Shown here in pieces: positions 3,812 to 57,197 of a stretch of 64,000 bases of DNA. This stretch comes from an uncultured Armatimonadota bacterium (lineage in GTDB: Bacteria; Armatimonadota; Fimbriimonadia; Fimbriimonadales; Fimbriimonadaceae). Every line of letters begins with the position of its first letter. Position 1 is the first letter of the stretch. A program made the position numbers and the translations under genes. The notes below the pieces were generated by a model. It was not told where the DNA came from. It saw nothing but the letters and a program-made list of their open reading frames with translations, and ran no database searches. Where the stretch lies: assembly GCA_903833215.1 (NCBI GenBank), contig CAILEM010000153.1, positions 186,001-250,000 of the forward strand, written 5' to 3'.

Positions 3812-3912
3812 GTTGTCATTGATCGCTCACGACAGACTGTGACGCCATTGCCGTCAGAATCTGTTGTGAGTGGGACGATGTAACCGTCAGTTGGTACCGT
3901 TTGATGACAGCA

Positions 3913-3941
3913 GGTAGCGTGGCACGCCACGCCCCTACGGT
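3913..3941 (+). repeat. Dispersed hairpin repeat, copy A
   Basis: This is a copy of a short intergenic repeat with consensus near TAGCrnGGCACGCCnnkCCCCTAC, also found at 57017-57041, 57075-57100 and 57171-57197. In this copy GCGTGGC-AC-GCCACGC forms a perfect 7-bp stem. Confidence 0.6.
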
Positions 3942-4011
3942 ATTGACAGAATGAGCATGATCTTTTTGGTCAAGTGTTCCCACGCGCCTGCCACCTACTA
4001 TCTCCGTGTCG

Positions 4012-36565: not shown

Positions 36566-37999
36566 ATGATGGGATCACCACAAATTATTCAGGGCGGTAT
36601 GGGTGTGGCCGTATCCTCCTGGAGACTAGCCCGCGCTGTTTCTCAGTGCGGTCAGCTCGGAGTCGTCAGTGGAACAGGCCTTGACGCGGTTCTTGCCCGC
36701 CGCCTCCAGGTCGGAGATCCAGACGGACAGATGCGAGTCGCTCTGGATGCCTTCCCAATTCCAGAGATGGCCCAAAGGATCCTGAATCGCTACTTCGTGC
36801 CCGACGGGAAGAAGAGCAACAAGCCTTTTAAGAGCAAACCGATTGCGGTTCAGAACTCGTCCAAGTTCCTTTTGGAACTCACCGTCGTCGCTAATTTTGT
36901 TGAGGTCTTTCTTGCCAAAAAGGGCCACAACGGGTTGGTGGGAATCAACCTGCTTGAAAAAATCCAGATGCCCACACTGCCTTCGCTCTACGGCGCGATG
37001 TTGGCTGGCGTAGACTATGTGTTGATGGGAGCCGGAATTCCCAGAGCAATCCCGGCAATGCTGGACAAGCTGTCGCAGCTTCAACCCACCCAGCTAAAGC
37101 TGGACGTCCAAGGTGCGCAACCGGGCGAAGAATTCATGGTCGACTTCGACCCAGCTCATTTCACACCTGAGGGTGTAACAAGTCTTCCACGTCCCAAGTT
37201 TTTGGCGATCATTGCTTCCTCCACTCTTGCCATCACACTGGCGAGAAAGAGCACGGGCAAAGTGGACGGATTCGTCGTCGAAGGCTGGACGGCAGGCGGA
37301 CACAACGCCCCACCTCGCGGTGCGATGCAACTGGATGAGAATGGGGAACCCATTTATGGGCCACGAGACGTTCCAGATCTTGCCGAAATCGCAAAACTTG
37401 AGCTACCTTTCTGGCTCGCAGGTTCCTATGCAGACCCAGCGAAGCTCCAAGAAGCCCTCTCGATGGGTGCTGCTGGCATTCAGGTAGGAACCGCATTTGC
37501 CTTCTGTGAAGAGTCAGGCATCGATCCAGACGTTCGGACCCGGGCCATCGAAAAATGCCTCAGGGGCGAAGGTAGTGTTCACACGGATCCTCTCGCATCA
37601 CCAACCGGCTTCCCTTTCAAGGTCTTTAATCTCGAAGGCAGTCTTTCGGATGACCAAGCTTACGAAGGGCGAACGCGGATTTGTGACCTCGGCTACCTAC
37701 GACAGGTCTACCGAAAAGACGATGGCACTGTCGGCTACCGCTGCCCTGCCGAACCTATTGAGGACTTTGTTGAGAAGGGTGGGAAGGAAGAGGAAACCGT
37801 TGGACGCAAGTGTGTCTGCAACGGACTATTTGCAACGATAGGTCTGCCCCAAATTAGGAAGGACGGACAAATTGAACCCACTCTCATCACGGCGGGCGAT
37901 GATGTCGCGAACCTGATCAAGTTTGTTCGCCCCGGTTCCACGAGCTACCACGCATCTGACGTGGTTGCTTTCCTCCTCGGAGAAAAGAGCAAAGGTTAG
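36566..37999 (+). CDS. Nitronate monooxygenase / 2-nitropropane dioxygenase-like flavoenzyme
   Basis: The 477-residue protein is an FMN TIM-barrel of the nitronate-monooxygenase superfamily. IIQGGMGVAVS at the N-terminus is the flavin-binding strand, and the EGWTAGGHNAPPRG segment has the catalytic-type His near 245. SMGAAGIQVGTAFAFCEES binds the phosphate. It is longer than standard NMO enzymes; the C-terminal ~100 residues contain cysteines (CNGL, CDLGY, CPAEP) and may fold separately. PfaD-like enoyl reductases are a related alternative. The gene is isolated. Confidence 0.8.
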   Translation: MMGSPQIIQGGMGVAVSSWRLARAVSQCGQLGVVSGTGLDAVLARRLQVGDPDGQMRVALDAFPIPEMAQRILNRYFVPDGKKSNKPFKSKPIAVQNSSKFLLELTVVANFVEVFLAKKGHNGLVGINLLEKIQMPTLPSLYGAMLAGVDYVLMGAGIPRAIPAMLDKLSQLQPTQLKLDVQGAQPGEEFMVDFDPAHFTPEGVTSLPRPKFLAIIASSTLAITLARKSTGKVDGFVVEGWTAGGHNAPPRGAMQLDENGEPIYGPRDVPDLAEIAKLELPFWLAGSYADPAKLQEALSMGAAGIQVGTAFAFCEESGIDPDVRTRAIEKCLRGEGSVHTDPLASPTGFPFKVFNLEGSLSDDQAYEGRTRICDLGYLRQVYRKDDGTVGYRCPAEPIEDFVEKGGKEEETVGRKCVCNGLFATIGLPQIRKDGQIEPTLITAGDDVANLIKFVRPGSTSYHASDVVAFLLGEKSKG

Positions 38000-38020
38000 A
38001 TCCTACGTCGCCGAATAAGC

Positions 38021-38068
38021 AAAGAAGCCGGGAGCTTGGACTTGGTCCAGGCTCCCGGCTTCTTTGTT
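38021..38068. terminator. Bidirectional terminator
   Basis: AAAGAAGCCGGGAGC (38021-38035) pairs perfectly with GCTCCCGGCTTCTTT (38051-38065). An inner TGGAC/GTCCA stem extends it. It separates the convergent NMO-like and hsp20 genes. Confidence 0.88.
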
Positions 38069-56995: not shown

Positions 56996-57016
56996 TCCCA
57001 CAGCAGCGAGCAACGC

Positions 57017-57197
57017 GTAGGGAAGAGGCGTGCCTCGCTACTTGCTATTTAGTTAGGCAACCCAAATTTGGGCTGGTACGGCACGCCTGCCCCACCACGA
57101 CCAGCACATTTGTGTGGGTAGAGAACGTGCCTAGATATACTTTGATAGGTGTTTTAACGCAAATTTGCGTTAGCACGGCACGCCCTGCCCCTACAGA
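57017..57197. repeat. Cluster of three dispersed hairpin repeats
   Basis: Three copies of the repeat seen at 3913 lie in this 211-bp gap: an inverted copy at 57017-57041 (stem GAGGC-AC-GCCTC), and direct copies at 57075-57100 and 57171-57197. The two direct copies are each preceded by an A/T palindrome: CCCAAATTTGGG (57061-57072) and the perfect 18-mer TAACGCAAATTTGCGTTA (57155-57172). No gene lies here. Confidence 0.65.

Follow-up and report, generated by a model that had tools for sequence, protein, structure and literature searches.

What kind of element is the short hairpin repeat at 3913-3941, and is it the same thing that recurs near 57 kb of this stretch of DNA (the window, 64 kb, G000:C153:186001-250000, with G000 the source genome)? 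The initial annotation had described it from these places as a dispersed repeat with one inverted copy, and a search with TAGCRNGGCACGCCNNKCCCCTAC recovered 3915-3938 (+, 0 mismatches), 57017-57040 (-, 1 mismatch) and 57171-57194 (+, 0 mismatches), while 100 shuffles gave no match at all. Across the source genome (6.22 Mb in 168 contigs) GGCACGCCNNNCCCCTAC had 43 exact matches and its reversed control 0, so that the repeat is genomic and not a local coincidence. The motif that was first noticed is a genuine repeat, and that observation is confirmed.

Aligning the copies revealed that this motif makes up just one arm of an element, here named W, that measures ~80 nt. Two GTAG-tagged palindromes (consensus GTAGGGGC-xyGGC-GT-GCCyx-GCT) face one another in inverted orientation across a linker of ~37 nt, with GTAG on the outside at each end, which gives a full form of GTAGGGG-[C/A]GAGGC-GT-GCCTC-GCTTCTTGCTGCCGCTGTRACTGACCAACGTTGGGTTAGC-xyGGC-AC-GCCyx-GCCCCTAC, often with TCCGKT on its 5' side and ACCGGA on its 3' side. 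A short palindrome that carries the tetranucleotide GTAG at its foot is the mark of GTAG-REPs and REPINs, and, as read from its sequence, the architecture of W is that of a GTAG-REP head-head dimer, that is, a REPIN. The copies had been taken as single units, and we rejected the single hairpin as the unit of repetition since it is the inverted pair that recurs.

Placed back on the window with a covariance model (R1, built from 21 full W elements), the copies resolve into two elements and one further unit. The first element, at 3864-3944 on the minus strand (G000:C153:189864-189944:-, 31.2 bits), has one end intact and the other decayed, and its intact GTAG-REP GTAGGGGCGTGGCGTGCCACGCT, at 3916-3938 (-) by motif match and as a member of the stem-unit set used below, is the copy from which the annotation started. 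The second, at 57011-57102 on the plus strand (G000:C153:243011-243102:+, 39.4 bits), is a full REP dimer, and the copies at 57017 and 57079 are its two ends: a left REP, GTAGGGAAGAGGCGTGCCTCGCT, at 57017-57039 (+; motif match and stem-unit set) and, within the model match, a degenerate right REP at 57078-57096 (-; CGGCACGCCTGCCCCACC on the plus strand), which is the extra copy annotated there. The copy at 57171 is a further REP unit, GTAGGGGCAGGGCGTGCCGTGCT, at 57172-57194 (-; motif match and stem-unit set), with an imperfect, broken stem and no well-preserved partner by eye. Elsewhere in the window, an inverted repeat of 22 nt, 95% complementary and closed by a 3-nt loop, lies at 38020-38066, directly after the ORF at 36566-37999.

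To the annotation, two differing stems, GTGGC/GCCAC and GAGGC/GCCTC, implied compensatory base changes. Both stems are present as described, but the window copies alone do not make the case: folded singly as 30-31-nt DNA, none of the four did better than shuffles (z -1.39, -0.05, -0.08 and -0.70), so that the argument for the hairpin rests on the genome-wide set. Of eight whole W elements folded in silico as DNA, five gave a clear structure (z -2.47 to -4.45) and three a weak one (z -0.54, -0.54 and -1.79), both window elements being among the three. For the genome-wide set we gathered 92 REP units by the tag and positions 11-18, with one mismatch allowed in each, and kept the 76 that were uninterrupted, the other 16 being broken by an element described below (Y). 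The search motif leaves stem pairs 9-20 and 10-19 free; these were Watson-Crick in 68/76 and 69/76 units vs shuffled means of 35 and 30, and pair 11-18, which is partly fixed by the motif, in 71/76 vs 52; pairs 7-22, 8-21 and 12-17 did not beat shuffles in these 76 units. The stem takes many versions, including GAGG/CCTC, AGCG/CGCT, AGGG/CCCT, GGGG/CCCC, ATGG/CCAT, AAGG/CCTT, ACGG/CCGT and GACG/CGTC. Over the 21 full elements (alignment A1) the covariation score was 0.157 vs 0.066 shuffled and paired cells made up 88.8% vs 83.8%, each with 0/500 shuffles as high; pairs changed on both sides (113/500) and further pair types (143/500) were not in excess. Changes on both sides fell in 4 of 6 pairs of the right hairpin and in none of the left helix, partly because these elements were gathered with the left REP as search motif, its left stem fixed to 5 mismatches. 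The stems are thus kept by paired changes, as in GTAG-REPs and REPINs, and the hairpin with compensatory changes first proposed from the window is supported genome-wide.

Counting with R1, we found at least 85 matches in the source genome, 18 of which are the same place on the opposite strand by hand count, which leaves at least 67 places, with a slight overlap in two pairs of them, a lower bound from scoring the best 150 of 1965 first-look candidates. Among 61 genomes R1 matched four, namely the source genome (at least 65 matches) and, weakly, three of the same order, G039 (at least 5), G049 (at least 2) and G056 (at least 2); it matched none of 36 other genomes of the family, 19 congeners and 17 further members, at the best 70 candidates per genome and under stricter filters. 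Exact pattern matching over these 61 genomes agreed, the only other genomes with matches being G049, G055 and G056. On inspection the order-level R1 matches turned out to be GTAGGGG palindromes different from W and were rejected: in G039 they are 66-nt dimers whose loop reads GCTTGC, in G049 and G056 palindromes of 28 nt. The dimer of G039, which belongs to another family of the order, is a compact 66-nt head-head form unlike W, GTAGGGGCGTAGCTTGCTACGCC...GGCAGGGCAAGCCCTGCCCCTAC (loci L114, L117, L119 and L120). An exact scan of wider genome contigs, which may omit the source genome records and is uninformative, gave two single matches in Chloroflexi-type MAGs (L082 and L083), and an Rfam search of four W loci had no match up to E 1. 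Five of the copies near contig ends (L009, L012, L060, L065 and L066) share the 3' end of a duplicated protein gene, a terminator-like hairpin and W, and by eye these copies cease to resemble one another at the right end of W, which gives the impression that W delimits the duplicated segments.

How the units are paired bears on what W is. Neighbouring REP units (<=120 nt apart) stood head-head in 24 cases, head-tail in 11 and tail-tail in 0, and the members of doublets (n=62) were more alike than singlets (n=60), at 0.763 vs 0.598 with 0/500 permutations as extreme, a comparison in which the singlets may include chance matches from the loose motif that would lower their identity. The inverted doublet is the conserved unit of W, and pairing and likeness of this kind are among the properties that, in the excerpts available, served Bertels and Rainey to define REPINs (PMC3116915). 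With a probability that we put at roughly 80%, W is a REPIN (GTAG-REP dimer): a miniature mobile element, not autonomous, that a transposase of the RAYT group moves. In single-stranded DNA each palindrome, or the whole element, is predicted to fold, and an HUH single-strand transposase of the RAYT group would recognise GTAG together with the hairpin and move or copy W into a new gap without target duplication; we infer this type of movement from the architecture, the lack of evident target duplication and the known chemistry of RAYTs. The cognate transposase may have been lost or left unassembled; alternatively, W may be served in trans by one of the three RAYTs of this genome. Decay would leave single REPs, of which 3916 would be an example, and the palindromes would then serve as landing sites, with Y observed at the palindrome axis and presumably inserted there.

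The strongest competitor would make W the MITE of a double-strand (DDE) transposon, the ends TCCGGT-GTAGGGGC being terminal inverted repeats of a lost insertion sequence. Many copies do have extended inverted ends of the form TCCGKT...ACCGGA, and the immediate flanks (offset 0) share a slight excess of bases right at the ends, 0.50 vs 0.33 nt with 9/200 shuffles as high. A longer target duplication is not evident, however: the longest direct repeat in the flanks was 3.12 vs 3.00 nt shuffled, with 61/200 as high, among 26 elements that are not all independent, since a duplicated gene flank is common to five and a flank of repeat X, described below, to three. The internal palindromes, moreover, covary, for which a DDE end has no need. 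We have set this explanation aside for want of a clear target duplication in those 26 elements, and consider it unlikely.

Somewhat less probable still is that W acts mainly at the RNA level, terminating transcripts or stabilising mRNA at the 3' side, and is kept by selection at gene ends, its spread being secondary. The positions of W are what gives this idea its appeal, along with the kept stems. That the copies lie in gaps only, as annotated, is true within the window, where by a crude gene call all are intergenic (the 3811/4006 gap is tandem, the 56995/57207 gap convergent), but not throughout the genome, where W is a dispersed, many-copy and mostly extragenic element with 7/63 clusters overlapping a crude ORF call. 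Classifying 46 of the 63 clusters by the same crude call (the other 17 being 10 at contig edges and the 7 overlapping ORF calls) gave 25 convergent, 16 tandem and 5 divergent gaps, vs 10, 22 and 10 among the window's own gene pairs (n=42), so that convergent gaps are enriched, 25/46 vs 10/42 (Fisher p=0.005), and W sits mainly 3' of genes. Such a REP-like position is, however, also what one would predict if promoters and genes had been cleared of the element; neither window locus shows a terminator-like site, our search for a rho-independent terminator at them having yielded no candidate; and the failure to find W in the 36 other family genomes (best 70 candidates each) argues against a conserved role. 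As for the paired stem changes themselves, template-switch correction of imperfect palindromes at replication converts one-sided changes to paired changes and could also produce them, so that selection for the hairpin, as annotated, is a fair but not a forced inference; as a full explanation of W it is very improbable, for it leaves dispersal, the GTAG tag and inverted pairing unexplained.

If W is a REPIN of this kind, a RAYT might be expected beside it, and the initial annotation had pointed to a RAYT-type transposase as a possible neighbour. The source genome has seven Y1 transposases. Four of them (L031-L034) score best against the IS200/IS605 model, three exceeding its cut-off, and the other three, L035, L036 and L037, score best against the NCBIfam model for REP-associated tyrosine transposases (RAYT), at 78.5, 84.3 and 79.2 bits against a cut-off of 80 bits, just below which L035 and L037 fall; by eye, all three retain the H-x-H motif. 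The pointer to a RAYT is therefore half right, for each of these RAYT-like genes adjoins a GTAG repeat, but a different one and never W: within 300 bp on each side, again by eye, L035 has the hairpins GTAGTCGGCGGTGATCGTACCGACG in both orientations, L036 has GTAGCCGCCGGATGTTTCGTGCCGGCG inverted about the gene and L037 has GTAGTCGACGTCTCCGTGGCGTCG in the same orientation. None of these three repeats occurs in the window at up to 5 mismatches. Likewise, no W copy was found in the flanks of the seven Y1 genes, which covered about 1.5 kb per side (491 bp on one side at L033), and no RAYT flanked by W turned up among 37 transposase loci, 29 of them from relatives. Because none of the seven Y1 loci carries it, W is an orphan in this 168-contig assembly, and its link to RAYTs would be one of kind only. 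According to the accessible parts of PMC3733652, REPtrons are missing in other species too.

Many W copies are broken at the palindrome axis by a second repeat, Y, which is ~175 bp long (e.g. L016:1520-1694; 174-175 bp in 16/24 complete copies) and has no gene. Y ends on both sides in 19-bp inverted repeats, TAATGTCAAACAGTTTTGG, terminal inverted repeats such as a DDE-type MITE would have, and inside it GTAGCCGCCGGATGGCTTGTGCCGGCG and GTAGCCGCGGCATGGTTTGTGGCCGCG lie in inverted orientation as a REP dimer of a type other than W, GTAGCCGCCGGATGGCTTGTGCCGGCG being close to the repeat that adjoins the RAYT L036. Searching the source genome returned at least 60 matches to Y, at least 37 of which have 40 or more matched bases (hand count, best 40 of 68 candidates scored), and 56 Y ends at up to 3 mismatches. 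Among the examined loci with enough flank (51 distinct ends, 24 complete copies), 50/51 ends abut a W half-palindrome at its axis, the exception being one end at L182. As many of these loci had been fetched via W itself, we counted separately the loci first fetched by Y (L160-L182), where 22/23 ends abut a W half-palindrome.

Y may duplicate ~10 bp at the axis. Over the 24 complete copies, a direct ten-base repeat fits better in 15 and the inverted form in 6 (L160, L166, L167, L169, L171 and L172), while L073 and L165 tie and L182 fits neither; the axis being palindromic, direct and inverted forms differ at 2 loop bases only. In five copies (L165, L166, L167, L169 and L171) an outer REP end borders Y to the left and to the right alike. 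A variant axis can flank a single copy at either end, as AGGCTCTCC does at L161 and GGGCGCKCCC at L073, and Y occurs in left and right W palindromes and in both orientations, which together suggest repeated insertion of Y rather than the copying of one ancestral composite. At L067 two like-oriented Y copies occupy adjacent W palindromes, an arrangement that is a possible parent, by deletion, of the outer-outer form. Gene-less Y-like copies are present in the congener G004 (189-192 bp, with a different interior) and once in the congener G007 (about 204 bp), and by eye inverted-repeat-like flanks are seen at 1/3 complete G004 copies and at the G007 copy, the others not being clear. As to an autonomous parent of Y, no widely spaced end pair emerged when up to 3 mismatches were allowed across 37 genomes, nor, with 1 mismatch at most, in the listed places of 113 genomes.

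It is possible, if on balance doubtful, that Y is a palindrome-seeking miniature transposon whose transposase would choose the axis of an extruded REP hairpin as its almost sole target, by structure and with loose sequence demands rather than only as AGGCGTGCCT, and that REP populations would, by the same tentative account, be a harmless docking ground in which three layers (REP dimer in Y in REP dimer) are nested by two or three unrelated enzymes. The idea of a docking ground for other elements comes from Y itself carrying a REP dimer that resembles the repeat of a different RAYT. Were Y to recognise hairpin structure, it would provide a natural read-out of palindromes extruding in living cells.

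A third repeat, X, meets W at its outer end. At the contig ends of C29, C75 and C155 the similarity to W stops after the outer-end CCCCTA and a common new sequence of at least 116 bp follows (L011 1579-1694, L024 1580-1695 and L071 2119-2253); these are the only 3 places of X in the source genome, and 3/3 follow CCCCTA at contig ends. X is assembled over 116-135 bp only, and the sole IS110 gene found sits on another contig. From its position, X is perhaps an IS110-type element with a CT core. In its accessible parts, PMC11208160 describes REPs as targets of IS110-type elements and the recombination of IS621 around a CT core.

Comparison with known systems places W among elements already described, as far as the available portions of the cited papers go. 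It is closest to the GTAG-REP families of Di Nocera et al. 2013 (PMC3733652), to which we liken it by architecture and not against their 24 consensus sequences: these too have a GTAG end and a short palindrome with complementary stem variants, form head-head dimers (theirs with 20-100 bp spacers), lie 3' of genes and occur as several families per genome, and the same source mentions REP dimers within longer palindromes for A. variabilis, T. roseum and H. neapolitanus. The REPINs of Pseudomonas fluorescens SBW25 (Bertels and Rainey 2011, PMC3116915) resemble W in their better conserved inverted REP doublet, remnant-like singlets and compensatory changes; there REP groups lie near specific RAYTs, whereas we found no RAYT with W alongside in the source genome. 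With TnpA-REP of Stenotrophomonas maltophilia (Corneloup et al. 2021, PMC8266576) W shares the perfect GTAG palindrome, which that enzyme recognises single-stranded; its biochemistry is known, while W is known from sequence alone. Our literature search for REPs in Armatimonadetes found no paper, which says nothing sure on this lineage. Turning to Y, the insertion sequences ISPsy8 and ISRm22 (Tobes and Pareja 2006, PMC1525189) similarly insert at the symmetry axis of REP palindromes, with all copies in REPs, but they give 3-bp and 6-bp repeats, whereas Y is ~175 bp, gene-less and perhaps duplicates ~10 bp and, unlike them, carries a REP dimer of another type; a literature search on MITEs inserted in REPs with target-site duplication returned no title on such nesting. 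W belongs to a kind of element already known from other bacteria and the family itself is new, adding a REPIN family seen in one species only, with its mobiliser missing, whose repeats serve as the nearly exclusive site for another gene-less element; the nesting of Y in W is less ordinary than W itself and is a possible new variant among these systems.
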